Assembly: GCF_040939125.1 (NCBI RefSeq)
Contig: NZ_CP162495.1
Span: 2,480,001-2,544,000 of the forward strand
Length of the DNA: 64,000 bases
Reading direction: 5' to 3'
Origin: Clostridium sp. BJN0013
GTDB lineage: Bacteria; Bacillota; Clostridia; Clostridiales; Clostridiaceae
The notes under the pieces were generated by a model that saw only the letters and a list, made by a program, of their open reading frames with translations, searched no databases and was not told the origin of the DNA. The position numbers and the translations under genes were made by a program. This document shows, piece by piece, positions 16,110 through 56,575 of the stretch (position 1 is the first letter of the stretch; each line of letters begins with the position of its first letter).

Positions 16110-16256
16110 ATCGAGTAATTCTTAGGTTCAGATGGGGTTTGCTATAGAGAAATGCTTATCTCCAGCTGAATTTTAGAAGCACTTATCCAGATGCGTTAGC
16201 CACGCTTATCTCCTACTTTAAAGAATATGGAGTTAGCTAATTCTAGCGTTCGGATA
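16110..16256 (-). repeat. Dispersed structured intergenic repeat, copy A (near full length)
   Basis: Minus-strand copy of the about 145-nt repeat family described in the findings. It starts ATCCGAACGC directly after the U tract of the trp leader terminator and ends about 20 nt before trpE. It contains CTCC/GGAG hairpin halves, three GGATAAG-like motifs and the long arm TTCTAAAATTCAGCTGGAG / CCCCATCTGAACCTAAGAA. It would lie in the trpEGDCFBA mRNA leader. Confidence 0.75.
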
Positions 16257-16616
16257 AAAAAATACACTTCAGTCCTCAAAAGGGACGAAGTGTATTTTCC
16301 GCGGTACCACCCATATTAATCTTATACTAGATGGTAAAAATTAAAATAAAAAGCATTTCTCCCTTTTAGGAAGAAATGCTGAATTTTCTTAGCCACCCAA
16401 ATAAAACTCTCTCTTTAAGGTACGGAGAAGTATTCTCGATACCCTGTCTTTTTAACGGTAGACTTACCGGATATTGCTACTACTAATTCACATCACACCT
16501 TACAGATCCATTCAGTATTAACATTAGCATCTGAATTCCACCCTCTCAGACTCTCTTATCCTAAATTATAACACTTACTACTTCTGCTCATAGGATTTAC
16601 TTTTTGAAATTTGTTA
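16256..16616 (-). ncRNA. Tryptophan T-box leader of the trp operon
   Basis: The antiterminator bulge motif TGGGTGGTACCGCGG is at 16313-16299. Upstream are Stem I elements: an AGTA segment, an apical TCTGA/TCAGA hairpin with a GGTG loop, and the specifier context GAATGGATC, whose codon UGG (16510-16508) reads tryptophan. A hairpin at 16352-16380 (AGCATTTCT/AGAAATGCT) fits Stem III. The intrinsic terminator at 16256-16301 pairs AATACACTTC..TCC with its complement before seven U. Uncharged tRNA-Trp should favour readthrough into trpE. Specifier assignment rests on the motif context. Confidence 0.92.
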
Positions 16617-16622
16617 ATTAAG

Positions 16623-16651
16623 ATTATAAAACTAAATTTTATAGTTGTCAA
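16623..16651 (-). promoter_or_regulatory. trp operon promoter
   Basis: Minus strand -35 TTGACA (16651-16646), 17-nt spacer and -10 TATAAT (16628-16623), a full sigma-A consensus. It lies 6 nt past the stop of the upstream phosphatase gene and would start the T-box leader near 16616. Confidence 0.9.
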
Positions 16652-16657
16652 TATATT

Positions 16658-17482
16658 TTACAATATAAATTTTTTTATAACTTCTCCCACAGCACCACTA
16701 TTATTATCTGTTTCTGTAATATAATCTGCAGATTTTTTCAAAATTTCCCTGGAATTAAATACAGCTACCCCAAGGCCTGCAGTTTTAATCATGCTTTTAT
16801 CATTTTCATCATTTCCTACAGCTATGCACTGCTCCATAGATATATTATAATAATCTGCCAAAAATTCCAGAGCCTTGCCTTTTGAAACACCTCTGCTGAC
16901 TATTTCAATATTATACAGATCCGACTTTGTAGTTGTTATACCGGGAACTTTAGCTATTTTATTTCTCAACCTTTCCAGATATTTTACATCCTCATCAATA
17001 ACTACTATTTTGGTTATATTACACTTGCAATGTTTTATAAATGTCTTTGAATTTTTTATAATTGTAATTTTCATTTTAAATTTTTCACTGTAACTATTAT
17101 TAATATCATAAAATTTTTTAGTAGTATACCTAAATTGCTCACTATAAAGTCCAAAATCGTCATAAAAATGATAATAGGTATCCTTTTCTTCTCTCAATAT
17201 ATCTATAACTTTTAATAAGCTGTATTTATTCAAAGGAGTTGATTTAATAATACTTCTATTTTCACCTATTATCACCCCTCCATTACAGCATATTATAGGT
17301 TCACCAGGAAATACTACTTCAGAATAAAATTTTAATGCCATAGGAGGTCTTCCTGAACAAATAACAAATTTTACTCCCAATTTTATGGCCTTATATATCA
17401 TATTTTTATTATATTCTGGTATCAACCTTTCGTCATCTAAAAGGGTTCCATCCATATCTACTGCAATAATTTTATAATTCAT
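16658..17482 (-). CDS. HAD-superfamily phosphatase, Cof (HAD-IIB) type
   Basis: A 274-residue cytoplasmic phosphatase. Motif I is VDMDGTLLDD with nucleophile Asp9 and acid Asp11; motif II is ICSGRPP; motif III lysine is in SKGKALEFLADYY; motif IV is VGNDENDKSM. The long C2-type cap between motifs II and III (about residues 85-190) marks the Cof subfamily, which acts on sugar phosphates or nucleotide cofactors. The actual substrate cannot be read from sequence. GGAGG precedes the ATG. Confidence 0.92.
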   Translation of the reverse strand: MNYKIIAVDMDGTLLDDERLIPEYNKNMIYKAIKLGVKFVICSGRPPMALKFYSEVVFPGEPIICCNGGVIIGENRSIIKSTPLNKYSLLKVIDILREEKDTYYHFYDDFGLYSEQFRYTTKKFYDINNSYSEKFKMKITIIKNSKTFIKHCKCNITKIVVIDEDVKYLERLRNKIAKVPGITTTKSDLYNIEIVSRGVSKGKALEFLADYYNISMEQCIAVGNDENDKSMIKTAGLGVAVFNSREILKKSADYITETDNNSGAVGEVIKKFIL

Positions 17483-17588
17483 ATGTACACCTCCTATTTT
17501 TATTAAATATATTATTGAATTTAAGGTATAACCTTCAAAATAAAAACATAAATTTTATTATAATACTCTATGTCAGGTGTGATATAAA

Positions 17589-18056
17589 TTGAAAAAATTT
17601 TTATTATTATTAATACCGATTATTTTACTTGTAGTACTTAGTTATAAATTAAACAATGGTATGTTTAGCCCTCAAAAGCCAAACAATTTTTATTACACAA
17701 ACCTGCTTGCTAAAAATCTATCTTTATCTTCTCCATTAAAATGTGCTATGGAAGAAAATAATTTCCACGATGAAATAAATTTAGATAAAGATAATATTAA
17801 AGATATAAAAAACCTGTTATCCTCCCTTAAAAAAAAGAATTTTATCAACAAGCCCAAAAATCTACCAGAAAAATCTGCCTATAGAATTACTTTTACTTTT
17901 GATAAAGAAAAATTATTAATAGATGTATATAATGAAAAATATCTGTGTATTTATCCCTGGGATGGAGAATATTCTATGGACTATATAGACATAAGTGATA
18001 TTCCAGCCTCTTTAAATTTATATTATTTAGGTAAATACCTTTTTAAACAATATTAA
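17589..18056 (+). CDS. Membrane-anchored or secreted protein of unknown function
   Basis: A 155-residue protein with a TTG start after AGGTG. The first about 22 residues (after KK) are strongly hydrophobic, with no lipobox or clear cleavage motif, so it is either anchored or exported. The rest is Lys/Asp-rich with a pattern of beta strands near FTFDKEKLLIDVYNEKYLC. It may belong to a clostridial DUF family (DUF4883 came to mind), but I cannot confirm that. It shares its direction with the following DUF4397 protein. Confidence 0.7.
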   Translation: MKKFLLLLIPIILLVVLSYKLNNGMFSPQKPNNFYYTNLLAKNLSLSSPLKCAMEENNFHDEINLDKDNIKDIKNLLSSLKKKNFINKPKNLPEKSAYRITFTFDKEKLLIDVYNEKYLCIYPWDGEYSMDYIDISDIPASLNLYYLGKYLFKQY

Positions 18057-18151
18057 CAGAATTCTCTTTTACAAATCTCATATAATTGTATCACAGATAT
18101 AGTTATATACATATATTATTATTGTATAAATTTATGAAAGGTGAATTACCA

Positions 18152-18808
18152 ATGTTCATTTGTCCTTATTGTGCCCGGAATTTTTATAGGGCTCCTAAAT
18201 TTAGAGCTGTATCCCACATAAGATTTTTAAATGCCAGTCCAAATTCTCCTGCAATAGATGTATATTTAAATGATAGGCTTATATTTAGAAATCTATTGTA
18301 TAAATACTTTTCAGATTATGTAACTATACCTTCTGGAACATACCATATAAAGGTATTTCCTTCTGGAAATACTGTAAATCCACTTATAGATAAAAGCTTA
18401 TTTATATCTCCAGAAAAAATATTTACCCTGGCTGCTATAAACGAATATCCAAATATAGACTTACTCTCTATAGAAGATATACGCCGTCCTAAAATTCCAG
18501 GTAAAACATTTATAAGATTTGGTCATCTTTCCCCTGAGGCACCTACCCTAAATATAGTTCTTCCTAATGGTAATACACTTTTTTCAAATGTATCTTATAA
18601 ACAGATAACTTCATATATACCCGTGGATCCTGGAACCTATACCATAGAAGCTAGAGCTTCTAATTCCGGAGAAAGAATTCTATATGTACCTAATATACGG
18701 TTACGTGGAGATAGATTTTATACCATATATGCTGTAGGAAATCTATCTAAACCACCTGAACTTCAAGTATTAATTCCTCTTGATGGCAACAGTTACATTG
18801 GTTCTTAG
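18152..18808 (+). CDS. DUF4397-domain protein with N-terminal CxxC
   Basis: A 218-residue protein starting MFICPYCARNFYRAP; AAAGGTG lies 8 nt upstream, which favours this ATG over two earlier in-frame ones. Two tandem DUF4397-like beta-sandwich units are visible: IRFLNASPNSPAIDVYLND... and FIRFGHLSPEAPTLNIVLP..., each followed by a Y(V/I)P(S/V)..GTY motif. No signal peptide is seen. The CPYC at the start could bind zinc with a partner subunit. Family function is not established; a cell-surface or spore role would be guesswork. Confidence 0.85.
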   Translation: MFICPYCARNFYRAPKFRAVSHIRFLNASPNSPAIDVYLNDRLIFRNLLYKYFSDYVTIPSGTYHIKVFPSGNTVNPLIDKSLFISPEKIFTLAAINEYPNIDLLSIEDIRRPKIPGKTFIRFGHLSPEAPTLNIVLPNGNTLFSNVSYKQITSYIPVDPGTYTIEARASNSGERILYVPNIRLRGDRFYTIYAVGNLSKPPELQVLIPLDGNSYIGS

Positions 18809-18932
18809 TTAATCCGTATTTTTACAAAGCTAAATTTTACAATAAACATTGTAAATAAACCTCTATTATAGTAAAATCATAACTAGATCATTTGTGGCAA
18901 TTTTCTATAATAAAAATACTTAAGGTGTAAAA

Positions 18933-19451
18933 ATGAATAAAACAAAAAAATTAGTTTTTTTAAGCTTTTTAACGGGCATGGCTTTAGTTATATATATAAT
19001 AGAGGCACAGATTCCAGTGTTATTTCCAGGAATAAAATTAGGGCTGTCTAATACAGTATCACTGGCCACTTTAATACTTTTAGGTTGGAGAGAAGCATTA
19101 CTGGTAATGCTTTTAAGAACTCTTTTAGGTTCAATGTTCAACGGTACAATGACCGCATTTATGTTCAGCATAGCTGGTGGAATTTTAAGCAATTTAGTTA
19201 TGATTATATTATATAAATATTTTAAAAATTCCATGAGTCTTTGGACTATAAGCATATGCGGCGCCATATTTCATAATATAGGTCAGTTATTAATAGCATC
19301 TATTATAATTCAGGACTTCAAAATATATATATACCTGCCTGTGCTTTTAATATCTGCCATAATAACAGGATATTTTATAGGCTGGTGTACAAAATTCCTA
19401 ATGGACAATTTAAGTAAAATTCCCATATTTAAAAGTTTCCTAGATTCCTGA
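18933..19451 (+). CDS. Gx transporter / heptaprenyl diphosphate synthase component I-like membrane protein
   Basis: A 172-residue membrane protein with five to six hydrophobic helices. IKLGLSNTVSLATLILLGWREAL and the GGILSNLVM segment match the HepI/Gx family, whose fold resembles ECF transporter S-components. In clostridia it often neighbours rnf or quinone/FMN-related genes, and here it converges on rnfB. The old heptaprenyl synthase label is doubtful; small-molecule transport is the likelier role. Confidence 0.85.
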   Translation: MNKTKKLVFLSFLTGMALVIYIIEAQIPVLFPGIKLGLSNTVSLATLILLGWREALLVMLLRTLLGSMFNGTMTAFMFSIAGGILSNLVMIILYKYFKNSMSLWTISICGAIFHNIGQLLIASIIIQDFKIYIYLPVLLISAIITGYFIGWCTKFLMDNLSKIPIFKSFLDS

Positions 19452-19484
19452 TCAATCAAGTAATTCAGAGGTTCAGGTGGAATT
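19451..19484 (-). repeat. Dispersed repeat, copy F (3' half only)
   Basis: On the minus strand it reads CCACCTGAACCTCTGAATTAC then TTGAT, the 3' arm and end of the repeat family. The 5' half is absent. It abuts the shared terminator between the Gx-type gene and rnfB. Confidence 0.6.
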
Positions 19485-19520
19485 AAACATGCCGCAGTTT
19501 TTTCTGCAGCATGTTTTTAT
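19485..19520. terminator. Bidirectional terminator between the Gx gene and rnfB
   Basis: Stem AAACATGCCGCAG / CTGCAGCATGTTT with one mismatch, T-rich on the plus strand and A-rich before it, so it can end transcripts from both sides. It closes the rnf operon on the minus strand. Confidence 0.8.
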
Positions 19521-19527
19521 CATCTAA

Positions 19528-20385
19528 TTATGAATTTGCCGCAGCTTCTTCTTTACTTTGCTCTTGCAAATCCATAGCACTTATAATTTTTTTAATGGCT
19601 CCTGTAGGACATTTAGCAAGACAAGTAGCTTCACTGCATTTTTCAATACAGATATGGTGATCCACTACTGCTAAATTATTTTCCAGCTTAATAGCCCCAT
19701 AAGAACAATTTTTTAAGCATAATCCACATCCAAGGCATCCTACCTTACAAGATTTACGTACTTCTGCTCCCTTATCTTTAGAATTACAGTTAACTGCAAC
19801 CTTAGAACCTAAAGACCTTAACTGAATTACACTCTTTGGACAAACAGTTGTACAAGAACCACAACCTGTACATTTATACGTATCAACTACCGGTAAGCCT
19901 TTAGAACCCATAGTTAAGGCATCAAAAGGACAATGTTTCACACAAGTTCCAAAACCTAAACATCCATATTGACAAGCTTTAGGTCCTCCCTGAAGTAAAT
20001 TTGCCGCAGTACAATCCTTTATTCCTTTATAATTATATTTTTTTACTGTATTTGACAAATCTCCTGAACATCTTACATGGGCAACTTTTGCTTCAACATC
20101 TCCCGCAGATTTACCGGTAAGTTCTGCTACAGCCTTTGCAACTTCTTCCTTTCCAGGTACACAAAGATTAGGGGGAACACTTTCATCTAACACAACTGCC
20201 TCTGCATATGCCTTACACCCTGCATATCCGCATCCTCCGCACTGTCCCTTTGGAAGCACGTCTTCCACCAATTCTATAAGTGGATTTACCTCCACTGCAA
20301 ACTTTTTATCTACATAGCCCAAAATAAGTCCAAACAAAAGTCCTATAATGGTCATTACTATTAAAACCATAATTACTGTCTGCAT
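19528..20385 (-). CDS. rnfB: Rnf complex subunit B, multi-cluster ferredoxin
   Basis: A 285-residue subunit with an N-terminal membrane anchor (about residues 4-24), then a four-Cys cluster motif GQCGGCGYAGCKAYAEA, then ferredoxin modules: CQYGCLGFGTCVKHCP, CTGCGSCTTVCP, CKVGCLGCGLCLKNC and CSEATCLAKCP. This extended Fe-S content is typical of clostridial RnfB, the entry point for electrons from reduced ferredoxin. Last gene of the rnfCDGEAB operon. The Rnf complex couples ferredoxin:NAD+ electron flow to ion export. Confidence 0.96.
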   Translation of the reverse strand: MQTVIMVLIVMTIIGLLFGLILGYVDKKFAVEVNPLIELVEDVLPKGQCGGCGYAGCKAYAEAVVLDESVPPNLCVPGKEEVAKAVAELTGKSAGDVEAKVAHVRCSGDLSNTVKKYNYKGIKDCTAANLLQGGPKACQYGCLGFGTCVKHCPFDALTMGSKGLPVVDTYKCTGCGSCTTVCPKSVIQLRSLGSKVAVNCNSKDKGAEVRKSCKVGCLGCGLCLKNCSYGAIKLENNLAVVDHHICIEKCSEATCLAKCPTGAIKKIISAMDLQEQSKEEAAANS

Positions 20386-20400
20386 TTCACCAGCCCCTTT

Positions 20401-20982
20401 CTACAGCGAAATCATGCCTGAAAAACCCATGAAGGACAAAGCCAGCATTCCTGCCAGAATAAAAGCTACTCCAAGACCCTCTAGAGGTTTAGGTACATCC
20501 GCTAATCTTAATTTTTCTCTAAGACTTGCCATTAAAACTATAGCTAGGGCAAACCCCAGACCAGAACCTATACTATTAACTACACTTTCTAAAAATCCAT
20601 AATTAGATTCAGCATTTATAAGTGGCACACTTAGTACAATACAGTTTGTAGCTATCAAAAGAAGATATATTCCCCACATATTATACAGTGCAGGTGCCTG
20701 TTTTTTTATAATAATTTCTAAAAGTTGTACAAAACTTGCAATTAAAAGTACAAAAACTACAGTTTTTAAAAATACTAGATTAAAAGGTACCAATACAAAA
20801 TTATAAACTACCCAAGCAAGCATGGAACTTAAAGTAATAACTGAAGTAACAGCCATACCCATACCTATTGAAGCATCTAAATTCTTAGAAACTCCGAAGA
20901 ATATACAAAGTCCTAGAAACCTTGTTAAAACAAAGTTATTTACAATTACTGCACTTATAAACAAAGTTAAATAGGCAGACAT
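20401..20982 (-). CDS. rnfA: Rnf complex subunit A
   Basis: A 193-residue integral membrane protein with six hydrophobic helices, related in sequence to RnfE. NNFVLTRFLGLCIFFGVSK near the N-terminus and LREKLRLADVPKPLEGLG near the C-terminus are family signatures. Its start overlaps the rnfE stop by 1 nt. RnfA and RnfE form an antiparallel pair that shares an iron-sulfur site in the membrane core in characterised complexes; conserved Cys in FLGLCIFFG fits that. Confidence 0.96.
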   Translation of the reverse strand: MSAYLTLFISAVIVNNFVLTRFLGLCIFFGVSKNLDASIGMGMAVTSVITLSSMLAWVVYNFVLVPFNLVFLKTVVFVLLIASFVQLLEIIIKKQAPALYNMWGIYLLLIATNCIVLSVPLINAESNYGFLESVVNSIGSGLGFALAIVLMASLREKLRLADVPKPLEGLGVAFILAGMLALSFMGFSGMISL

Positions 20983-21623
20983 TATGCTTCACCTCTACTT
21001 AATTTTTCTAATTTTTTCATTTTAATTTTCTCCACGTGTTGATTATAAACTTTTACTACAGATACTAAATATCCAATCAATATAAAAGCTCCTGGTGGAA
21101 GTATCATAATCAAAGCCGGATTATAAGAAGCCCACATTACATGTATACCAAATATAGTTCCTGCCCCAAATAATTCACGTATTATACTTATTAAAACTAA
21201 GGCTAAAGTAAATCCACATCCCATACCCAGTCCATCAAAGAAGGACGGTATTACAGGATTTTTAGAAGCAAAAGTTTCCGCACGGGCAAGTATTATAGCA
21301 AATACAACTACCAATGCCAAATATATGCCTAATTGACTGTACAATACAGGTGCGTAAGCTTGTAATACAAGTTCCACCACTGTAACTATAGTTGCTATAC
21401 AGGTTATATACACCGGTACACGAACCTTAGGATTTACAAATCTTTTAATTATAGAAACCACTGTATTGTTACAAGTTATAACGAACAATACGCAAAGTCC
21501 CATAGTCAAACCATTTATAGCAGAACTAGTTGTTGCCAGCGCCGGACACAAGCTAAGTGCAAGGACAAGTATAGGATTTTCCGCAATTAATCCTTTTTTA
21601 AATATATTCCATAATCCTTTCAT
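20982..21623 (-). CDS. rnfE: Rnf complex subunit E
   Basis: A 213-residue membrane protein, paralogous to RnfA, with about six helices. ENPILVLALSLCPALATTSSAING has the conserved Cys motif matching that of RnfA, and GLGMGCGFTLALVLISIIRE a second Cys. The C-terminal tail is basic (VEKIKMKKLEKLSRGEA). It starts 2 nt after rnfG ends. Confidence 0.96.
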   Translation of the reverse strand: MKGLWNIFKKGLIAENPILVLALSLCPALATTSSAINGLTMGLCVLFVITCNNTVVSIIKRFVNPKVRVPVYITCIATIVTVVELVLQAYAPVLYSQLGIYLALVVVFAIILARAETFASKNPVIPSFFDGLGMGCGFTLALVLISIIRELFGAGTIFGIHVMWASYNPALIMILPPGAFILIGYLVSVVKVYNQHVEKIKMKKLEKLSRGEA

Positions 21624-21625
21624 AG

Positions 21626-22174
21626 TTATTTACCCCCCGTAAATGTAGTAACCTCTTGAACTGCCTCTTTAACTCCTTTAGTTACAGCCCTTGAAGTAAT
21701 TGTAGCTCCTGTCATAGCTTGAATATTCTTATTGTTGGATTTATCTTTTACAACTAATAAATCATCAGCTGTTTTCCCTTTAAACTGTGCAGTAAAAGAA
21801 TCCTTTGAGGCATTAGCTCCAAGCCCTGGAGTCTCATTATGGGATACTATACTGAAACCTATTACTTTTCCATCTGGAGTAACAGCAACTAACATAGTTA
21901 TAGCCCCACCATATCCTTTGCTTTCTGCAGGTACTACATACGCAACTGTATTGCTTCCCTGCTTTGCTTCATACCAATCTGTCTTGCCATTTACAGATTT
22001 AAAATCATCTGCATTTTTAACTAAGGTCTGCATAGTCTTATTCTTCAATTCAATTTGTTTTTGTGCTGCCACTGGTGCAGTTATATAATAAACTACAGCA
22101 ATTATAATTCCAGCTATAAAACATGTAACTGTTAAATTTTTAGTAATCTTAAATACACTGTTCTTATTTTCCAT
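21626..22174 (-). CDS. rnfG: Rnf complex subunit G, flavin-carrying
   Basis: A 182-residue subunit starting MENKNSVFKITKNL; the GGAGG 8 nt upstream sets this start, rather than an in-frame one seven codons earlier. One N-terminal membrane helix (about 15-35) is followed by an extracytoplasmic FMN-binding domain. MTGATITSRAVTKGV holds the Thr that receives FMN covalently in the family. GLGANASKDSF is also conserved. Upstream lies a vestigial copy of its own 5' end. Confidence 0.96.
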   Translation of the reverse strand: MENKNSVFKITKNLTVTCFIAGIIIAVVYYITAPVAAQKQIELKNKTMQTLVKNADDFKSVNGKTDWYEAKQGSNTVAYVVPAESKGYGGAITMLVAVTPDGKVIGFSIVSHNETPGLGANASKDSFTAQFKGKTADDLLVVKDKSNNKNIQAMTGATITSRAVTKGVKEAVQEVTTFTGGK

Positions 22175-22178
22175 GAGC

Positions 22179-22256
22179 CTACCTCCTTGTCCCAAATTTA
22201 ACTGGGATTGTTAAATTTTTAGTAATCTCCAATGTGCTATTTTGGTTATTATCCAT
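22179..22256 (-). pseudogene. 25-codon ORF duplicating the start of rnfG
   Basis: Between rnfD and rnfG, 7 nt after the rnfD stop, an ATG opens a 25-codon frame: MDNNQNSTLEITKNLTIPVK, then FGTRR and TAG. It matches the RnfG start MENKNSVFKITKNLT, and 19 nt (GATTACTAAAAATTTAACA) are identical. The TAG sits just past the rnfG ribosome site, and the frame differs from that of rnfG. It looks like a remnant of a short tandem duplication. Whether it is translated, perhaps coupling rnfD to rnfG, is unknown. Confidence 0.7.
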
Positions 22257-22263
22257 TAAGAAG

Positions 22264-23256: not shown

Positions 23257-23275
23257 TTTACAATCACCCCTTATA

Positions 23276-24643: not shown

Positions 24644-24866
24644 CTCTTTCGATAATAATTTTAATTATGAAAATATTAGTTTTTACAAACTAAAATTATA
24701 AAATAATTTTTATATTAGAGTATGGATATTATTATCTACACTCCAATATAAAATTACATACTTTAAATAAAATTCAACATAACAAGTTAAATTAGAATAA
24801 ACACTCCTCTAATTTAACTAAAAAAACATATTTAAAATTTAAAAGGATCTGTAAAATTGATTCCAA
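24644..24866 (-). promoter_or_regulatory. rseC-rnfC intergenic region with two hairpins
   Basis: This 223-nt leader holds a stem of about 17 bp with a few G-U or mismatched positions around 24707-24756 (ATATTGGAGTGTAGATA / TATCCATACTCTAATAT on the minus strand) and a 10-bp stem at 24787-24817 (TTAAATTAGA / TCTAATTTAA). Neither is followed by a strong U tract in the minus direction, so they look more like mRNA processing or attenuation structures than a plain terminator. No named riboswitch was recognised. Confidence 0.5.
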
Positions 24867-27484: not shown

Positions 27485-27537
27485 TTTAAAACTTATTTAA
27501 GAATCACTTAACATATTGGAATTTTTATTTGAATACT

Positions 27538-27675
27538 AAAATTAGCCAACACTCCCATTTTCTTCAAAGTGGAAGATAAACACTTCTACGCACCTGGATA
27601 AGTTCTTCTAAGATTCAGATGGAGAAAAGCATTCCTCTATAGTAAACTCCACCTGAACCTAAGAATCGCTTGATA
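27538..27675 (+). repeat. Dispersed structured repeat, copy B (near full length)
   Basis: Plus-strand copy. It has CTCCCATTTTCTTCAAAGTG and GGAAGATAAACAC, then CTGGATAAGTTC, then the long arms TTCTAAGATTCAGATGGAG and CTCCACCTGAACCTAAGAATC. Its 3' part overlaps the 3' end of the carboxypeptidase gene on the opposite strand. A short AAGAATCACTTAA at 27510-27522 resembles the repeat 3' end. Confidence 0.8.
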
Positions 27676-28845
27676 TTTAGGTATTTGAAAATTAGTTAAA
27701 ACTTCAGGGGAATTTGCATTACCCCTGAAGCCAAAAATTTTATGCATGAATCTTCTTACTTTTACATCCTTGGAAGCTATTAATGCAGTGCTGTATATTT
27801 TTTTATCATTTTCATATACACAAAGCATTCCTATTTTATCACCCTTTTTTACAGTATATCCTATTTTTTGAGGTTTTATAATTTTTGTGGTATATTTAAA
27901 TCCATTTTTTATAGGTAATATAATATCACTTTCACATTGTAATTTTAGATTATTTTTACTGACCTTCAATTCTGCCGCAATATCATCTTTTGAAAATAAT
28001 TTTACAAACTTGTAATTTTTATTTACATACTCATATATTTTATTTGTTTCTTCCCATCTTCTAGGTGAATTTAAAACTACTATTATTATATCATTTTTTT
28101 GAACAGTTACAGAAGTAACCAGACACTTTCCTGCCTTTCCAGTATATCCAGTTTTAACTCCATTTGCCTCTGGAATCTGCCAGAGTATTTTATTTATATT
28201 ATGATAGCTTCTGGTAAATTTATTTTTTTCTCCATCTACATCTTTAGAACCTACAATTTCATTAAATAAAGGCTCTTTTTTAGCTATTGAAGTAACTAAA
28301 GCAAGATCATAAGCTGTAGAATAATGTCCTTCACTATCAAGTCCATGGGGTGTTTTAAATTGAGTATTTATTACCCCTAATTCACTAGCATATTCATTCA
28401 TAAGTTCTGCGAACTCTTCCACACTTCCACTAATACCTTCTGCAATAGCTATAGCGGCATCATTACCTGACCTTAACATAAGTCCGTATAAAAGTTCTTT
28501 TAATAATATACTTTCACCTTTTTTATAACCTACTGTAGAGCCTCTTACCGAAGCAGCTTTAGGGGATATATCTAATTTTTTATTTAAATCTCCATACTTC
28601 ATAGCTACTAAAGCAGTCATTATCTTAGTGGTGCTCGCCATTGGAACCAATTCATAAGCATTTTTTTCATATACTACTACTTTAGAATTACTATCTATAG
28701 CTACAGCACATCTAGCATCTATATTAGGTGCCTTAAAAGCCTTGTCTTCTCCTTCTGCAAATACATTATAGCAATATATATTATTAAATACAATAAAGAA
28801 TGTTATTATATATACATAGATTTTTTCTAATCTCACAATTTTCAT
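27637..28845 (-). CDS. D-alanyl-D-alanine carboxypeptidase, S11 family (DacF-like paralogue)
   Basis: A 402-residue penicillin-binding enzyme that trims peptidoglycan stem peptides outside the cell. It has a hydrophobic N-terminal export signal (about 10-30), active-site STTK (Ser71, Lys74), SGN (Ser126) and KTG (Lys231). A beta-rich C-terminal domain follows. The last 11-12 residues (QAILRFRWSLL) and the TAG stop are encoded inside repeat copy B, so the tail is acquired rather than conserved. GGAAGGAG precedes the ATG. A GGAAAAAATA element (28890-28881) resembles a sigma-F -10, but no good -35 was found. Confidence 0.93.
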   Translation of the reverse strand: MKIVRLEKIYVYIITFFIVFNNIYCYNVFAEGEDKAFKAPNIDARCAVAIDSNSKVVVYEKNAYELVPMASTTKIMTALVAMKYGDLNKKLDISPKAASVRGSTVGYKKGESILLKELLYGLMLRSGNDAAIAIAEGISGSVEEFAELMNEYASELGVINTQFKTPHGLDSEGHYSTAYDLALVTSIAKKEPLFNEIVGSKDVDGEKNKFTRSYHNINKILWQIPEANGVKTGYTGKAGKCLVTSVTVQKNDIIIVVLNSPRRWEETNKIYEYVNKNYKFVKLFSKDDIAAELKVSKNNLKLQCESDIILPIKNGFKYTTKIIKPQKIGYTVKKGDKIGMLCVYENDKKIYSTALIASKDVKVRRFMHKIFGFRGNANSPEVLTNFQIPKYQAILRFRWSLL

Positions 28846-29532: not shown

Positions 29533-29538
29533 AATATT

Positions 29539-29686
29539 TATCCGAACGCGACAATTAGCTAATACTCCCATCTTCTTCAAAGGGAAATAAACACTGCTAC
29601 GTGCCTGGATAAGTTCTTCTAAGATTCAGATGGAGATAAGAATTTCTCTATAGCAAACTCCACCTGAACCCAAGAATCACTTGATA
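29539..29686 (+). repeat. Dispersed structured repeat, copy C (near full length)
   Basis: Plus-strand copy starting ATCCGAACGCGACAATTAGC and ending AAGAATCACTTGATA. It lies between the DUF2953 gene and gerW, in the presumed gerW leader. It has all three GGATAAG-like motifs and both arms of the long hairpin. Confidence 0.8.
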
Positions 29687-29734: not shown

Positions 29735-30181
29735 ATGGATAATCATCCTATAGAAAACTTATTAAAAAGCACCATGGAAAATTTGAAAGATATGATAGAT
29801 GTAAATACCATAGTAGGAGATGCGGTAGAATCAAAAGATGGTTCTTTTATAATACCCATTTCAAGAGTGTCTTTAGGTTTTATATCTGGAGGAAGTGAGT
29901 TCAATTCTAAAAATGAGGATACATCTAATTCAGAATATCCTTTCGGAGGAGGTTCTGGAGCTGGGGTTACAGTAAAGCCTGTGGCTTTTTTAGTTACCAA
30001 AGGTGACTCCATAAGACTTCTATCCTTAAATCAAAATAATACCTATGATAAAATAGTAGATTCTATTCCTCAGATAATAGATTTAATTAAGGGAATGGGA
30101 AGTTCCAAATGTAAAAAATCAGAAAATACACATAAAAGAGAAGAAGAAAAAGAAGAAACTGTCAAAGAAAAAAACTCATGA
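29735..30181 (+). CDS. gerW: GerW/YtfJ-family sporulation protein
   Basis: A 148-residue protein. NTIVGDAVESKDGSFIIPIS and the Gly-rich GGGSGAGVTVKPVAFLV are the GerW/YtfJ signature. The C-terminus is a Lys/Glu-rich tail. In Bacillus the homologue affects spore lysozyme sensitivity and germination. AGGAGG precedes the ATG. The stop overlaps the start of a repeat fragment and is followed by a terminator. Confidence 0.92.
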   Translation: MDNHPIENLLKSTMENLKDMIDVNTIVGDAVESKDGSFIIPISRVSLGFISGGSEFNSKNEDTSNSEYPFGGGSGAGVTVKPVAFLVTKGDSIRLLSLNQNNTYDKIVDSIPQIIDLIKGMGSSKCKKSENTHKREEEKEETVKEKNS

Positions 30182-30182
30182 T

Positions 30183-30216
30183 CAAACTCCATCTGAATCT
30201 AGAAATCATTTGATAG
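30183..30216 (+). repeat. Dispersed repeat, fragment D1 (3' half)
   Basis: Reads AAACTCCATCTGAATCTAGA then AATCATTTGATA, matching the 3' arm and end of the family. It begins at the gerW stop. No 5' half precedes it. Confidence 0.65.
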
Positions 30217-30232
30217 AGTACATCAATTAGCT

Positions 30233-30275
30233 GCATGTCAAGAAAAATATTTTTGACATGCTATTTCTTCTTTTA
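30233..30275 (+). terminator. gerW terminator
   Basis: Stem GCATGTCAA/TTGACATGC (30233-30241, 30253-30261), extended by A-T pairs in the loop, followed by a T-rich run. It lies 52 nt past the gerW stop. Confidence 0.75.
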
Positions 30276-30363
30276 TCCTAAGGCTACAATTAGCTAATAC
30301 ATCCAGTTTCTTCAAGGTGAAAGATGCTTATTGTTGCGCCCTTTTATAAGTTTCTCTAAGATT
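30274..30363 (+). repeat. Dispersed repeat, fragment D2 (5' half)
   Basis: Starts TATCCTAAGGCTACAATTAG right after the terminator T tract and ends CTCTAAGATTT, inside scpB. It holds the 5' hairpin and the first half of the long arm. It supplies the TAG stop of scpB on the other strand. Confidence 0.7.
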
Positions 30364-30964
30364 TACTTGTTTTATAAACTGATTCATAATTATTAATAAA
30401 ATCCTCTATTCCAGGAATTTCTTTTATACTATTCAATCCAAAATACTTTAGAAATTGTTCTGTTGTAACATAAAGTATTGGTCTTCCTGGAACACTTAAT
30501 CTCCCATTTTCTTCTATAAGCTTTTTTTCCATTAAAGTCATTAGTGCTCTATCACTTTTTACTCCTCTTACTTCATCTATATCTATCCTAGTTACAGGCT
30601 GCATATAAGCAATAATAGCCAAAGTTTCAAGTGCTGCTCTAGACAGAGATTGTCTTGAATTATTTCCCAATAATTTTTCTACATAACTACTGTTTTCAGA
30701 TTTAGTAACCAGACTATACTTATCACCATTATTCAATATTTTTATACCTCTACGGTATTTCTTATATTCAAGAGCCATCTCATTTATTAAATCCCTGGTA
30801 TATTCTATATTACATCTTATTATAGATGCAATTTGTTTTAATGTAAGAGGCTCTCCAGATACAAATAAAAGAGATTCTATTATAGAAAAACAATTATCCT
30901 TGGATAAGATATCGCCTTCATCAGTTTTATATATATTTTCACTAAAATTGTCCTCCATATTCAA
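30356..30964 (-). CDS. scpB: Segregation and condensation protein B
   Basis: A 202-residue double winged-helix protein, partner of ScpA and SMC in chromosome condensation. ESLLFVSGEPLTLKQIASII and RAALETLAIIAYMQPVTRIDIDEVRG are signatures. The start overlaps scpA by 23 nt, showing coupling. Its last residues and TAG stop come from repeat fragment D2, so the C-terminal tail (VYKTSKS) may differ from relatives. Confidence 0.95.
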   Translation of the reverse strand: MNMEDNFSENIYKTDEGDILSKDNCFSIIESLLFVSGEPLTLKQIASIIRCNIEYTRDLINEMALEYKKYRRGIKILNNGDKYSLVTKSENSSYVEKLLGNNSRQSLSRAALETLAIIAYMQPVTRIDIDEVRGVKSDRALMTLMEKKLIEENGRLSVPGRPILYVTTEQFLKYFGLNSIKEIPGIEDFINNYESVYKTSKS

Positions 30965-45916: not shown

Positions 45917-45927
45917 CCTAAATAAAT

Positions 45928-46823: not shown

Positions 46824-46874
46824 TTTTTTATATAAAAAAAATTTTTTATATATTTATTTATATGATATAAATGT

Positions 46875-46903: not shown

Positions 46904-46967
46904 ACAATATTATTTTACCATATTTTCTATATTTACTCAAATCCTTTATAATTTTTATTTACATTTT

Positions 46968-48068: not shown

Positions 48069-48273
48069 GGTTTTGCCTCCTGTCTTACACTGCTTCTTTA
48101 GCTTTAAGTTGCCCTTTTAAATATGTTATTATGCTATCATATAGTTTCATTTAAAGTTAATGTATTGTTTTAAAATATAAATTTTATACAAAAAGTTAAA
48201 AGTCACCTCTTGAAGTACTCATAAAAATAATTTATCATTTTATACACTTTAGAGATAACTTATAAAATCGATA

Positions 48274-49971: not shown

Positions 49972-49982
49972 ATTACAGCCTC

Positions 49983-50435
49983 CTACTGTGAAATCATTTT
50001 TTTCATCTTTTGAGTTATACTATGGGCCTTTTCTTTGTCCCTAGCCATCACAAATATAGTATTATCTCCAGCTATAGTTCCTGCTATGCCAATGAACCCT
50101 AGTGAATCTATAGCTTCTGCTGCTGCAGAAGCAGAACCTGAAATAGTCTTTATAACTACAAAATTATCTATATTTTCAACACTTATTACAGTTTGGGAAA
50201 ATATATTTACAAGTTTATTGGATAAAAAACTTTCCGTATGAGATATGGTTGCATACTTATATTTCCCATTATCCGACAATACTTTTATAAGCTTTAATTC
50301 TTTTATATCTCTAGAAACAGTGGCCTGAGTTACATTCATACCACTACTTTTAAGTTTTTCTGCTAGTTCCTCCTGAGTTTCAATATTATTCGAATTAATA
50401 ATTTCCAGTATTTTAGCGTGTCTAGTTACCTTCAT
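49983..50435 (-). CDS. argR: Arginine repressor ArgR/AhrC
   Basis: A 150-residue regulator. N-terminal winged helix (about 1-70; TQEELAEKLKSSGMNVTQATVSRDIKELKLIKV) and C-terminal arginine-binding trimer domain (about 80-150; GFIGIAGTIAGDNTIFVMARD). The start overlaps the nadK stop (ATGA). Its place before recN is conserved in Firmicutes; arginine genes are not in the window. Confidence 0.95.
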   Translation of the reverse strand: MKVTRHAKILEIINSNNIETQEELAEKLKSSGMNVTQATVSRDIKELKLIKVLSDNGKYKYATISHTESFLSNKLVNIFSQTVISVENIDNFVVIKTISGSASAAAEAIDSLGFIGIAGTIAGDNTIFVMARDKEKAHSITQKMKKMISQ

Positions 50436-51283
50436 AATATTCCACCTTCACATCCTTTTGCATTAAAAATAATTTTCTCTCTAAGTGTATTAAAATAAGC
50501 ATCATCAAATTTAATAAGTCTTCTTTTATTTTTAGATTTATTTATTTTTATGGTTTGAGAGCCATTCACTGCTACCCATTTTTGACCATCTATAGATAAA
50601 AATGAATCTTCATAATTTTTTTCTATTGATATACTTATACGAGATCTGCTATCCAATACGATACTTCTAGATGCAAAAAATTGGGAATACATAGGTGTTA
50701 AACACAATACATCTAAAAATGGGTGTATTATAGGACCTCCTGCAGATAAATTATATGCTGTAGACCCTGTAGAAGTGCATATGATAATACCATCTCCACT
50801 AAAGCTATTATAAAAAGCATCATTTATATACACATCATATCTTTGTATTCTTGACTTAATCCCCCTATATAATACCACATCATTTAATCCGTCATAACTC
50901 TTTATTTTATTACCTTCATTATAACTGCACTGGATCATATCTCTTTTTTCAATTGTATACTCCCCTTTAAAAAGTTTTTTTAATGCAGCCTCTACACTGT
51001 TTATTTCTACTTGTGCCAAAAAACCTAAATGCCCTATATTAATTCCAAGTATAGGTGTCTTTGATCTAAGCACATTTCTAGAGGTGTTTAATATAGTCCC
51101 ATCTCCCCCAAGCACTATAATCACATCCAGACTGTTGCTTTCATTTTCATCAAGCCCCGTACAATTCTCATATGTTTTTATAGTTACATTTCTATCTATA
51201 TTTTTTATATTTTCTATTATGAAATTCAACATTCTTTTATTTGGATCTTTTATTGTATTAACATTAATTCCTATATTCTTCAT
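50432..51283 (-). CDS. nadK: NAD kinase
   Basis: A 283-residue enzyme that makes NADP from NAD. VIIVLGGDGTILNTSRNV carries the GGDG motif and the catalytic Asp; STGSTAYNLSAGGPIIHP is the second family signature. Starts at ATG overlapping the tlyA stop (ATGA) and overlaps argR in the same way, so tlyA-nadK-argR are coupled. Confidence 0.96.
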   Translation of the reverse strand: MKNIGINVNTIKDPNKRMLNFIIENIKNIDRNVTIKTYENCTGLDENESNSLDVIIVLGGDGTILNTSRNVLRSKTPILGINIGHLGFLAQVEINSVEAALKKLFKGEYTIEKRDMIQCSYNEGNKIKSYDGLNDVVLYRGIKSRIQRYDVYINDAFYNSFSGDGIIICTSTGSTAYNLSAGGPIIHPFLDVLCLTPMYSQFFASRSIVLDSRSRISISIEKNYEDSFLSIDGQKWVAVNGSQTIKINKSKNKRRLIKFDDAYFNTLREKIIFNAKGCEGGIL

Positions 51284-52104
51284 AGTTCCTCTCCATTCAG
51301 TTCCCCATGTGATGATCTTACTATAGTATTTATATCTTCTTCTTTAAACAATTCACGAGCTTCTTTTTCCTTGGTAAAATATATTAAATATTCTATATTT
51401 CCTTCGGGTCCCTTTATAGGCGAATAATCAAGAGAAATTATTTTAAAATTATTTTCTTTTAAAAAAGTTACAATTCCTTTAATAACTTCTATGTGGGTAG
51501 ATTGTTCTCTAACTACTCCTTTCTTCCCAACTTTTTCCCTTCCTGCTTCAAACTGGGGTTTTATAAGAGCTACTATACTACCACTTTCCTTTAACAAGTT
51601 CATAACTGCAGGTAAAACTTTTTTAAGTGATATAAAGGAAACATCTATACTGGCAAAATCAGAATATTCTCCTATATCTTTAAAAGTTACATACCTTATA
51701 TTGGTTCTTTCCATACATACTACTCTTTTGTCTGTTCTAAGCTTCCAGGCAAACTGACCATAGCCTACATCTATGGAAAATACCTTTTTAGCTCCCCTTT
51801 GAAGCATGCAATCAGTAAATCCTCCTGTAGATGCTCCTATATCCAGACACACTTTATTTTTTAGATTTATATTAAATTTTTTTAAGGCTTTTTCTAATTT
51901 TAAACCTCCACGGCTTACAAAAGGAAGCTTTTCTCCTCTAAATTCTATATTAGAACTCCTTTTTATATTTTGTCCACACTTATCTACTCTCCGTCCATCT
52001 ACGAATATTTCTCCTGCCATAATACTGGCCCTTGCCCTCTCTCTTGAAGAAAAAATACCTTTATCTACTAAAAGTAAATCTATTCTTTCCTTTGGTTCTG
52101 ACAT
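51280..52104 (-). CDS. tlyA: TlyA-family rRNA 2'-O-methyltransferase (S4 + FtsJ domains)
   Basis: A 274-residue protein starting MSEPKERIDLLLVDKG; GGAG lies 6 nt upstream, favouring this ATG over a GTG six codons earlier. An S4 RNA-binding domain (about 5-65; SRERARASIMAGEIFVDG) is followed by a Rossmann methyltransferase with CLDIGASTGGFTDCMLQRGA (SAM loop). Homologues methylate 16S and 23S rRNA in some bacteria; the annotation YqxC/hemolysin A is older. Activity on rRNA is inferred. Confidence 0.93.
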   Translation of the reverse strand: MSEPKERIDLLLVDKGIFSSRERARASIMAGEIFVDGRRVDKCGQNIKRSSNIEFRGEKLPFVSRGGLKLEKALKKFNINLKNKVCLDIGASTGGFTDCMLQRGAKKVFSIDVGYGQFAWKLRTDKRVVCMERTNIRYVTFKDIGEYSDFASIDVSFISLKKVLPAVMNLLKESGSIVALIKPQFEAGREKVGKKGVVREQSTHIEVIKGIVTFLKENNFKIISLDYSPIKGPEGNIEYLIYFTKEKEARELFKEEDINTIVRSSHGELNGEEL

Positions 52105-52124
52105 AACAAACTCCTTTGTCACTT

Positions 52125-53999
52125 TTAAAATATACCACTTAACTTCACTACTTTAAGAACTTCACCTACAATACTTTTTACGTCAAGTCCATATAATTTA
52201 TATAAAATACTTGGCTTACCATGCCTCACAAATTCATCTTTAAATCCTAGGTTTATTATCTCTACTTTTTTATGCAATGTATTCACATATTCTAATATAT
52301 AAGAGCCCAATCCACCTCTTATTATATTGTCTTCAATAGTTATAATAGTTACATTCTCTTCCACCAGCTGCTCTAGCATTGCTTTATCTAAAGGTTTAAT
52401 GAAACAGGCACTTATAACTCTTACTGAAATTCCCATTTGCTTAAGTTTTTCCGCTGCCAGAACCGCATGTTCCACCATTCTTCCCTGGGCCACCAGCGCT
52501 ATTTTCCCTTCCTTCAAAATACATTCCCATTTTCCAAATTGAAAATCTTCTAAGGGTGTAAGATATATATTATCTCCTCCCCGTGGATACCTTATAGCTA
52601 TAGGACAATTTTGATTTAATGACCACTTAAGCATATACATAAGTTCATGTATACATTTAGGTGACATAATAGTCATATTGGGCATTTCAGTTAAATAGGA
52701 TAAATCAAATATACCTTGATGAGTTTCTCCGTCATCTCCTACAATTCCTGCCCTATCCACAGCAAAAACTACTGGCAGTTTTTGAATACATATATCATGA
52801 AGCAGCTGATCATAACCTCTCTGAAGGAAAGTAGAATAAACTGCAAATACAGGCTTTAATCCCTCCACTGCCATTCCTCCCGCCAGAGTCACAGCATGCT
52901 GTTCTGCAATTCCTACATCAAAAAATCTTTCTGGAAACTCTTTTGCAAAATTTTGAAGTCCGGTACCATCTCTCATTGCCGCAGTTATAACTACTATTTT
53001 TTTATCTTTTCTGGCCAGATTTACCATTTCATCTCCAAAGGCTTTGGAGTATGTATTGGTAGAAGTAGCTGCTATTTCTCCATTATTACAATTGAAAGGC
53101 CCTATTCCATGAAACTTACCTGGATTTTTCTCTGCAAATTCATAACCTTTCCCTTTTTTAGTTATTACATGAATAATAACTGGATTATTTACTTTTTTTG
53201 CAGCAGTCATAACTTCTGTAAGATCCCTTATATTATGTCCATCTATAGGGCCTAAATATTTTATTCCTATATCTTCAAAAAACATCCCTGATACTACCAT
53301 TTTCTTTATTCCATTTTTCAATCTTTCAAGATATTTAGCCATACCTTTCCCTATATTAGGTATTTTTTTTAATGTACTTTCCACTTCTTCTTTAAATTTA
53401 TTATACTTGGGATCTACTCTCAATTTGTTTAAATATCTAGATACTCCACCTACATTTTTTCCTATAGACATCTGATTATCATTTAATATTATTATAAGTT
53501 TTGTTTTTCTGTAACCCACATCATTTAATGCCTCCAGTGCCATTCCTCCCGTTAATGCTCCATCTCCTATAACTGCCACCACATTATGCTTTTCTCCTTT
53601 TAAATCTCTTGCCCTAGCCATACCTAGTGCTGCAGATATGGAAGTACTGCTATGTCCAGTTTCAAAAAAATCATATATACTTTCACATCTTTTAGGAAAA
53701 CCGCTTATTCCTCCAAATTGTCTTAAAGTATGAAATTTATCTTTTCTACCTGTAAGGAGTTTATGCACATAAGCTTGATGGCCTACATCCCATATAAGTT
53801 TATCATGATTTAAGTCAAAAATACTAAATAAACTTAAGGTAAGTTCTACAACTCCCAAATTGGAAGCCAGATGTCCTCCCGTTTTAGATACGTTTTCAAT
53901 TAAAAATTCTCTAATTTCTAGAGCCAGCTGTTTTTTCTCATCCAGAGACATTTTTTTTATGTCATTTACATCTTTATAATTATCTAATAAATTAAACAT
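52125..53999 (-). CDS. dxs: 1-deoxy-D-xylulose-5-phosphate synthase
   Basis: A 624-residue thiamine-diphosphate enzyme, first step of the MEP isoprenoid pathway (pyruvate + G3P to DXP). [20 protein letters not shown] is near the N-terminus; [18 protein letters not shown] then [13 protein letters not shown] form the ThDP-binding motif; the transketolase-like pyrimidine domain begins near residue 310 with the catalytic Glu in [33 protein letters not shown] follows. It lies next to ispA, which uses its products. Confidence 0.97.
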
Positions 54000-54061
54000 T
54001 TTATCTATCCTCTTTTACACAATAATAATAGAACTTAAATACATTACTGTTTCATAATACT

Positions 54062-54943
54062 TTATTTTTTTCTATTTAATAAAAGCAGGGTTAACTCTTT
54101 TAAATAAGAGGTATCGCCCTCTATTTCATTTAAAATTTCCATACATTCCTCAGTAATTGTATTGCACATTTGGTCACATTTATCCAATCCATAAACAGTT
54201 ACAAAGGTAGTTTTATTATTATTCAAATCGCTTTTTGTTCTCTTTCCCAAAACAGCAGCATCACCTAATACATCCAATATATCATCCTTTATTTGAAATG
54301 CCAATCCTAACTTTTCACCATAACATTTTAATTTGTTTATTTCTTCCTCACTGCAGTATGAATATATTGCTGCAGAAACTATTGAAGCTTTTATTATGGC
54401 GCCTGTTTTCCTACTATGCATATAATAAAGCTTATCTATAGGTATTTTAATATTTTCACTTAAAATATCTACTGTTTGCCCCCCTATCATTCCTTCCACT
54501 CCTGCACTTTCAGAAATAATACTACAGGCTTTTATGGCATTTTCCCCTCTTCCTATGCAATGCCTAAACATAATATTCATAGCTTCATTTAAAAGGCCAT
54601 CTCCCCCAAGTATTGCAATAGCTTCTCCAAATACTTTATGATTTGTAGGTTTTCCTCTTCTTAAATCATCATTATCCATGGCAGGCAGGTCATCATGAAT
54701 TAAGGAATAAGTATGTATCATTTCTATAGCTGCTGCAATATCCATAACTTCAATATAATTTTTATTATACATTTTATAAGTTAGGAGAAACAACATAGGT
54801 CTTATTCTCTTACCGCCTGCATTTAAACTATACTCCATGGAATCATATACTCTTCTATTATAACTTCCTTTACCTTGCATATATTCTCTTAAATATATAT
54901 CTAGTTCTTCTCTTAGGACTTTAAATACCCCTCTAATTTCCAT
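54062..54943 (-). CDS. ispA: Polyprenyl (farnesyl/geranylgeranyl) diphosphate synthase
   Basis: A 293-residue prenyl chain-elongating enzyme. First Asp-rich motif is IHDDLPAMDNDDLRRG, second FQIKDDILDVLGD, with GGKRIRPMLFLLTY near the N-terminus. Length and motif spacing fit short-chain (FPP/GGPP) synthases, and the xseB-ispA-dxs order is typical. The exact product length cannot be read. Confidence 0.94.
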   Translation of the reverse strand: MEIRGVFKVLREELDIYLREYMQGKGSYNRRVYDSMEYSLNAGGKRIRPMLFLLTYKMYNKNYIEVMDIAAAIEMIHTYSLIHDDLPAMDNDDLRRGKPTNHKVFGEAIAILGGDGLLNEAMNIMFRHCIGRGENAIKACSIISESAGVEGMIGGQTVDILSENIKIPIDKLYYMHSRKTGAIIKASIVSAAIYSYCSEEEINKLKCYGEKLGLAFQIKDDILDVLGDAAVLGKRTKSDLNNNKTTFVTVYGLDKCDQMCNTITEECMEILNEIEGDTSYLKELTLLLLNRKK

Positions 54944-54966
54944 AATATATTCTCCATTCTATAATT

Positions 54967-55185
54967 TTAACATTCAATATTAAAATCTTTTTCTCCCTCT
55001 TCAGTAAGAACTTTTATTTTTTCTTCAGCGTCATTTAAAATTTTATATAATTTATTGCAGAGTTTTACTCCTTCTTCATAACTTTTTATGCTACTTTCCA
55101 AAGATAACTCACTACTATCCATAGATGCTACTATATTTTCCAATTTCAACATTATACTTTCATAGGTTTCCGCTTTCCTAGGCAT
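54967..55185 (-). CDS. xseB: Exodeoxyribonuclease VII small subunit
   Basis: A 72-residue helical protein (YESIMLKLENIVASMDSSELSLESSIKSYEEGVKL is the family core). Several copies bind one XseA subunit. It starts 15 nt after the xseA stop. Confidence 0.94.
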   Translation of the reverse strand: MPRKAETYESIMLKLENIVASMDSSELSLESSIKSYEEGVKLCNKLYKILNDAEEKIKVLTEEGEKDFNIEC

Positions 55186-55200
55186 GAGCTTGCAATCACC

Positions 55201-56403
55201 TCACTTTTTGTAATGAATAAGCCTAACTTGGGAAGTTCCGTCTTTCATTATAATCTTAATTTTATATTTTTTATTTAGTTCCTCTATGGAAGATATAAGA
55301 TTTTTCTGCTCATCTTCTATTATACAATATCCCCTATTCAAAATATTTAATGGATTATGGGCAGAAAGAAGTGCATTTGTTTTCCCAAGTTTTTCTTTTT
55401 TTTCATTAATAGTTATTTTTATTTTAAAATCTAGAAACTCTTTGATTTTGTCTATATTTTCATACTCATTTGCTATATAAGTTAAAGGATTATTCATTTC
55501 TAGGGTTTTTTGCATAAAATCCAATTTACTTTTGTTACCATCTATTGTATTCTTAACATTATTATAAATCGTATTTTTATAATTTAGTATTTTTTGTAGA
55601 TATTCTTGCAAACTAAAGACTCCAATTTCTGCAGCAGCAGAAGGGGTAGGTGCCCTCATATCAGATACAAAATCCACTATGGTATAGTCAATTTCATGCC
55701 CAACTCCTGTTATTATAGGCTTTTCGGAACTATATATAGCTTTTGCTAATTTTTCCTCATTAAAACACCAAAGCTCCTCTATAGAGCCTCCTCCTCTTGC
55801 TATAATTATAAGTTCCACATCTTCCATAGAATTGAAAGTTTCAATACCCTTTATAATATCATCACTAGCACTTGTTCCCTGTACCAGTGAAGGATAAATT
55901 AAAAGCTCTACTTTTCTATTTCTTCTCCTGGTCACATTTATTATATCTTTAACTGCTGCTCCTGTAAGTGATGTAATTACTCCTATTTTTTTAGCGTATA
56001 CAGGTATCTTTTTCTTATGTGAAATATCAAATAATCCTTTTTTCTCTAACTCTATCTTTAATTTTTCAAAAGCCAGATATAATTCTCCCATTCCATCCGG
56101 CTTCATTTTGCTGCAATAAAGTTGATATACCCCTTCTTTTTCATATAGGGATATTCTGCCTTTAACTATAACTTTCATACCATCTTCTGGCATAAAATTT
56201 AAATTTTCTACCGAACTTTTAAACATAATGCAGTTTATTTTACTATACTTATCTTTTAAAGAAAAATACATATGTCCACTACTGTGAAGTTTAAAATTAG
56301 ACACTTCTCCTTTAACAGAACAATTACCAAGTATAAAATCATTATCCAATGTTTTCTTTATGTAACGGTTAATATCAGATACCGTTAATGTTTTAATATA
56401 CAT
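55201..56403 (-). CDS. xseA: Exodeoxyribonuclease VII large subunit
   Basis: A 400-residue nuclease. N-terminal OB fold (about 1-100; [25 protein letters not shown]), then the catalytic domain with [18 protein letters not shown] and [29 protein letters not shown], and a coiled-coil C-terminus. It digests single-stranded DNA from either end. The stretch to nusB (56404-56653) has repeat copy E and no gene. Confidence 0.96.
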
Positions 56404-56441
56404 ACTTTACCTCTTTATTTTAAATTAAATATCTAAAAATC

Positions 56442-56575
56442 AAATTCTTCTTAGATTCAGATGGAGTTTGCTATAAGGAATGCTTTTCTCCCCCTGAATC
56501 TTAGAAGAATTTATCCAGGGGTATAGCAGTGCTTATCCCCCCTTTTGAGAAAACTGAGGATTCTAACACTGATAG
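56442..56575 (-). repeat. Dispersed structured repeat, copy E (near full length)
   Basis: Minus-strand copy between nusB and xseA. It has GGGGATAAGCACTGCTA, CTGGATAAATTC, the long arms TTCTAAGATTCAGGGGGAG and CTCCATCTGAATCTAAGAA, and an A+C-variable 5' hairpin. It would be in the xseA leader. Confidence 0.8.

Follow-up and report, generated by a model that had tools for sequence, protein, structure and literature searches.

The window analysed here, 64,000 nucleotides of Clostridium sp. BJN0013 (genome G000; contig NZ_CP162495.1, positions 2,480,001 to 2,544,000), carries a dispersed family of structured, gene-less repeats that we identify as a mobile DNA element. A first-pass annotation, made from the sequence alone, had reported four near-full and three half copies on both strands. 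A covariance search of the window bears this out with five copies (E 3e-29 to 2e-9), three of which were among the copies used to build its model. Two right-half fragments are detected as well. The four long copies are confirmed, with corrected limits that now include TTTAT in the coordinates (Table 1), and the remaining four of the nine covariance rows in the window are opposite-strand matches to the palindromic right half. The annotation could put no name to the family, and Rfam gives no match to it at its threshold in the window. A known RNA family was therefore rejected as its identity, the sole Rfam match in the window being the T-box beside one copy. This copy is inserted into the T tract at the end of the T-box leader, which closes with a terminator-like hairpin, before the gene for anthranilate synthase component I. 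Two open reading frames (ORFs), for a D-alanyl-D-alanine carboxypeptidase and for ScpB, terminate within the copies at 27524 and 30272, so that the repeat seems to provide their final codons and stop.

Table 1. Repeat copies, their parts and neighbouring genes in the window. G004 and G011 are the two relatives compared.
Feature	Position	Strand	Basis	Remarks
Full copy	29537..29685	+	covariance search, alignment	TTTAT target and element; also in G004 and G011
TTTAT target	29537..29541	+		left of element; TTAT and the next CC pair with the guide (helix P1)
Internal guide GGATAAG	29607..29613	+	read from sequence; pairing analysis
Right hairpin, helix P4	29617..29676	+		module B site between 29619 and 29620
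3' terminus CTTGAT	29680..29685	+
Full copy	27524..27674	+		absent in G011 (clean junction), in G004 by BLAST
Full copy	16110..16258	-		between T-box leader and anthranilate synthase gene; missing from G004 and G011
Full, decayed copy	56439..56587	-		absent in G004 and G011 inside a larger difference
Shortened copy	30272..30371	+	covariance search	mainly left half
Right-half fragment	30175..30227	+	E about 3e-6
Right-half fragment	19444..19484	-	E about 3e-6
T-box leader	16278..16600	-
Anthranilate synthase component I gene	14658..16088
D-alanyl-D-alanine carboxypeptidase ORF	27637..28845	-
ScpB ORF	30356..30964	-

The repeat is no chance resemblance. One copy used as a blastn query gives 42 matches in its own 4,101,691-base genome, itself and two short pieces included. 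A first covariance model, built from 43 copies, finds at least 150 copies at E <= 3.5e-9, counted as the best 150 of 3287 candidates. Some module-bearing copies (e.g. at 439272 and 706387) fall outside these 150, which makes the real total larger still. The consensus of 151 nt including TTTAT has sharp ends, and the flanks beyond TTTAT and TTGAT are unrelated. The element itself spans from a CC start to the 3' terminus TT(G/A/T)AT, about 130-150 nt when optional modules are absent. In a set of 80 copies (92 rows less 2 duplicates and 10 that were weak, partial or at an edge), 70 open with TTTAT; 66 close with TTGAT, 9 with TTAAT and 3 with TTTAT. As the annotation had proposed, the copies are intergenic: 79 of the 80 overlap no ORF of at least 90 aa, called by a simple in-house ORF caller, by more than 50 nt. 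They had also been described as often lying next to the 3' ends of genes, but placement is mixed instead. Relative to the element, the upstream/downstream genes are ++ in 31 cases, -- in 24, -+ in 15 and +- in 8, with one copy at an edge and one overlapping.

Comparison with G004 and G011, which align to the window at about 80-94% identity per BLAST segment, reveals empty sites. The copy in the T-box leader is absent from both relatives, and the junction in G011 reads TTTTTTTAT^TAACTTTGG. For the copy at 27524 the empty junction in G011 is TTTTTAT^ATTTAGG, and in G004 the flanks abut by BLAST, the alignment at that place being garbled. Conversely, G004 has a copy of its own at a site that reads TTTTTAT^AACTT in G011, and the window has none there. 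Fourteen G000 copies lie in stretches aligned to the two relatives (four in the window, five in L234, three in L235 and two in L238). Eleven are absent in both, seven with abutting flanks and four within larger differences; two are present in both, and at one the site is occupied in G004 only. Insertion takes place 3' of TTTAT, with variant targets such as TTTGT, and without target duplication; only the AT common to TTTAT and TTGAT recurs. The annotation's reading that there are neither terminal inverted repeats nor target duplications thus agrees with the copies, their flanks and the empty-site alignments. The repeat belongs to a superfamily of non-autonomous mobile DNA elements.

These comparisons also bear on the idea that the repeat is a cis-acting RNA or DNA signal, such as a regulator, terminator or attenuator, kept for the benefit of the host. 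The intergenic position of nearly all copies and the one lying between the T-box leader and the anthranilate synthase gene would suit such a role, as would the bcr1-3 repeats of Bacillus cereus, which are often parts of untranslated regions (PMC3446304). The 11 of 14 copies missing at the orthologous site in both relatives and the mixed orientation to genes speak against it. So does the fate of the two shared copies, whose G000 and G004 sequences are 18 and 25% apart, the flanks of 200 nt being 1.5-4.5% apart. As a general explanation we consider a host signal very improbable, though single copies could still be co-opted by the host. The divergence of the shared copies, together with the module seen in the G011 ortholog of the copy at 29537 (below), suggests from few cases that copies exchange sequence among themselves by gene conversion.

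The repeat folds into two hairpin domains arranged head to tail. The left domain comprises helices P1 (TTATCC/GGATAA), P1b, P2 and P3 (CTCCCA/TGGGAG), and the right domain is a single helix, P4, of up to 19 positions. RNAalifold on 43 close copies returned only five pairs, none of them double-changed, and the named structure was evaluated instead on a diverse set of 22 copies from several genera (alignment A2). Across this set 89.7% of the cells are paired, and an A-A mismatch in P4 is found in 21 of the 22 copies. There are 97 double-changed cells, compared to 37 when shuffled and 10-16 when slid, and the covariation score is 0.305 against 0.121 and 0.05-0.08, respectively. One pair in P1b occurs as GC, CG, AU, UA and GU and is paired in all 22 copies. 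The helices are conserved, with very strong covariation across families, and the annotation was right that the arms keep pairing by compensatory change. Covariation, further copies and the lack of an Rfam match, the three points on which it had staked the family, all came out in its favour; the further copies were found by a covariance-model search of the kind it had proposed, in this genome and in others alike.

It had added that the arms often keep pairing by G-U, but no G-U bias is seen. Among 2129 cells of the 43 close copies, A-C mismatches (147) and G-T mismatches (135, on this strand) are about equally frequent, indicating that decay does not favour wobble pairs on this strand. The opposite strand of the consensus folds better (-64.5 vs -50.1 kcal/mol). 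The pairing data do not separate the strands, nor DNA from RNA, as the active form. The annotation had taken the kept pairing to suggest RNA structure; the structure stands, but it need not imply a function as RNA, the copies being mobile DNA with empty sites in relatives and their pairing errors having no strand bias. An element mobilized through RNA, in which a folded transcript reverse-splices or is reverse-transcribed into its site with the help of a trans-acting enzyme and of intron-like pairing between guide and target, would account for the very strong structure, the optional helical modules and a single guide that matches both ends. The equal mismatch frequencies, the better folding of the opposite strand and the mixed orientation to genes argue in the other direction, and no Rfam intron matches in the window or in five loci. 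Searching those five loci with Rfam at E <= 1 gave one sub-threshold chance overlap with a copy (L110, mir-1255, 22.6 bits vs 63). Taken together, we judge the RNA route improbable.

The two ends of the element appear to be read by the same short sequence. Placed between the two domains, GGATAA forms P1 by pairing with the left target plus the CC that follows it. The window family has G as the next base after GGATAA and other families have C or T, and the base before the terminal TTNAT matches it as C, G or A. These two positions form Watson-Crick pairs in 36 of 39 diverse copies (CG 18, GC 16 and TA 2; the non-pairs are AC 2 and CT 1), a count whose rows are related by descent and which is thus not a tally of independent events. 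When partners are shuffled, the mean is 16.3 and the maximum 30 in 20000 trials. The count started from 41 rows, two of them undetermined; three further loci were dropped, their right end not being reached, and the sister-family loci L169 and L207 lie outside it. The following base forms a standard pair in 37 of the 39 copies. If the single base N is bulged out, ATAA(G/C/T) pairs with (C/G/A)TT-N-AT. This pairing competes with P1 for the same ATAA, so that only one of the two can form at a time. Since the guide base covaries with the base before the terminus, and GGATAA pairs with the target, a single guide seems to face both ends. What is new here is that one internal guide seems to match the left target and the 3' terminus alike.

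Optional hairpin modules are found at sites that recur between copies. Many copies carry module B, an extra 51-nt hairpin at TTC^TAAG of the right domain. Its 31-nt core has 46 matches in the genome with up to three mismatches allowed, 27 of them exact, and a reversed control has none. Over 41 aligned copies module B diverges from the consensus by 1.5% (including copy I30, whose eight module mismatches resemble an alignment shift), compared to 13.5% for the left part and 10.5% for the right part. When only rare variants, present in at most two copies, are counted, the rates are close (1.5%, 3.5% and 2.0%), so that the contrast comes mostly from variants common to several copies, which module B lacks. 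Copies in C. ljungdahlii and C. ragsdalei carry the module without change, and in sister family B it shows compensatory changes in its stem. Gain or loss of a module at an existing copy is seen once. The G011 ortholog of the window copy at 29537 carries the module in shortened form (38 nt) and the G000 and G004 copies do not; in this ortholog the right arm beside the module is consensus-like and the end retains locus-specific letters. At L238:15635 the G000 copy has the module and the G004 copy lacks it, but their divergence is large and two independent insertions at one site may be involved. Recent homing of module B into old copies was rejected as the sole account, as the 51-nt module is identical in C. 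ljungdahlii and C. ragsdalei and, in L234, entire module-bearing copies are absent from both relatives. Inspection by eye of C. luticellarii copies (L211:6955-7344, L226:66-420 and L232:1152-1493) reveals modules in the P3 loop and at the base of the right arm, as well as a long inter-domain module that starts with the reverse complement of the right end.

The distribution reaches beyond the genus. The first model has matches in 22 of 59 genomes at E <= 0.001, and a broader model (R2) in 17 of 245 genomes of class Clostridia at E <= 1e-5, both counts including the window genome; the R2-matching genomes fall into five families (f1, f24, f25, f28 and f33). The right end of family A, to which 76 stretches belong, occurs in named species that include C. 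ljungdahlii, C. ragsdalei, C. luticellarii, C. drakei, C. peptidivorans, C. simiarum, C. mobile and C. muellerianum. Sister family B starts with TTTATCCGATGACTAC and ends in GTTTAT. The phage and plasmid collections gave no match, nor did a family B copy find a blastn match in the plasmid collection. Viral contigs yielded 0, 0 and 5 stretches, and among these five there is one weak match to the broad model (E 0.003).

The nearest known elements are the bcr1 repeats of B. cereus and the miniature inverted-repeat transposable elements (MITEs) derived from IS200/IS605. In a literature search over listings and the openings of abstracts, we found no description of this repeat family in Clostridia. 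For bcr1, lengths of 147 and 167 bp are given (PMC2267715), and it is described as an intergenic repeat of up to 130 copies with a conserved secondary structure, mobile features, a TTTAT motif and no known enzyme, restricted to the B. cereus group (PMC6542083, PMC3446304, PMC2267715). Compared by description only, both repeats share the TTTAT motif, a length of about 150 bp, an intergenic position, structure and mobility; the one is described as confined to the B. cereus group and the other spans several families of Clostridia. A classical MITE has terminal inverted repeats and a target duplication, and the repeat has neither. Repetitive extragenic palindromes (REPs) and their composite mosaic elements (BIMEs), served by TnpA-REP, are likewise intergenic, present in many copies and built of hairpins, with a Y1 enzyme acting in trans. 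REPs are 21-65 nt long with GTAG or GTGG 5' of the hairpin (PMC6006769); the repeat has about 146 nt, and its consensus has neither motif at the feet of its hairpins. Group A IStrons, which are related to IS200/IS605 elements, insert after TTGAT, ATTAT or TTTAT, targets like that of the repeat, and end in TCAG (PMC4227781). In an IStron a group I intron is fused to an insertion sequence. The repeat ends in TTNAT, is too short for an IStron and has no group I intron match in the window and five loci.

The agreement with IS200/IS605-derived MITEs goes further. The repeat inserts 3' of a fixed short target without duplicating it, and it has subterminal imperfect hairpins. IS200/IS605 elements have a guide 5' of each hairpin, which pairs with the target on the left and with the final tetranucleotide on the right (PMC6006769). 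Pairing of a guide with both target and right terminus is also found in the repeat, but with one shared guide rather than one per end. Because the repeat resembles these elements in its target, in the absence of a duplication, in its hairpins and in the logic of its guide, we favour a single-strand mechanism of the IS200/IS605 kind, acting in trans, over another recombinase or an RNA route, at a probability of roughly 55%. In single-stranded DNA, the guide would bring each end in turn into position to be cleaved and joined. The cuts would fall after TTTAT and after the element's own TTNAT, and the excised copy would be inserted after another TTTAT. Less certainly, this may be the work of a Y1 (HUH) transposase of the IS200/IS605 kind that acts in trans and has since been lost from some hosts. 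Copies would afterwards decay and swap sequence among themselves, the optional hairpin modules travelling along.

Several observations weigh against this mechanism, the missing enzyme being its main weakness. Y1_Tnp matches occur in 28 of the 36 genomes searched, yet G003, G004 and G015, which have none, hold at least 52, at least 52 and 43 copies, with about 52 candidates scored per genome, and G004 holds a copy absent in G000 and G011. Among the part of the Y1 loci that was read, no autonomous element carries the ends of the repeat; those of the IS605 kind show TTTAAC on the left and finish in TTCAC. A likeness of P3 to the left-end hairpin of IS605, seen with a repeat profile, is weak (E 0.018) and vanishes with a broader profile. 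The guide of the repeat lies 3' of the left domain, at odds with the 5' guides of IS200/IS605. To these must be added the kinship of the rows in the guide–terminus count, and that certain absences could reflect precise excision rather than a lack of insertion. The orientation relative to the replication fork, with the origin assumed at base 1, shows at most a weak bias: 87-91 of the best 150 of 3287 candidates are co-directional (p 0.01-0.06 by assumed terminus).

An autonomous relative was also sought through the ends of the repeat. For eight of 318 left-end matches, spread over 270 loci, the closest right end on the same strand is at a distance of over 300 nt, and at L196, the sole wide left-right pair examined, no transposase-like ORF was seen by eye between the ends. 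G000 itself contains nine IS200-type Y1 genes that are full-length and nearly identical, two of which have a TAG in frame, plus fragments, and two TnpB elements that are 98% alike across 1.9 kb. These were rejected as parents, as the ends that were read are unlike those of the repeat. In G007 a copy (L155:2041-2227, minus strand) lies near a Y1 transposase gene on the opposite strand, probably by chance.

The same mobile element might instead owe its movement to a different recombinase, or to some host activity that targets sites resembling TTTAT, as has been proposed for bcr1. The copy-rich genomes lacking a Y1_Tnp match would fit this reading, and family B, ending in TTTAT, has the motif on both sides. 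The hairpins and the pairing of the guide with target and terminus are needed by a single-strand mechanism and not by a duplex recombinase, and for that reason we regard this alternative as unlikely, if less so than the RNA route. A bolder version is similarly doubtful: a new gene-less mobile class, widespread in Clostridia, in which one guide alternates between TTTAT and TTNAT, the enzyme is no known Y1 transposase and modules are interchangeable, one of them near-invariant across species.

Gene-less repeats such as bcr1 are described as mobile, with no known enzyme or end-recognition rule. Here the empty sites provide exact junctions, and covariation over several bacterial families provides a testable rule for the recognition of both ends. 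Its hosts include gas-fermenting clostridia such as C. ljungdahlii and C. ragsdalei, in which polymorphic copies bear on gene ends, leader regions and annotation. The shared guide, if true, would be a novel variation in the way such elements are excised and inserted.

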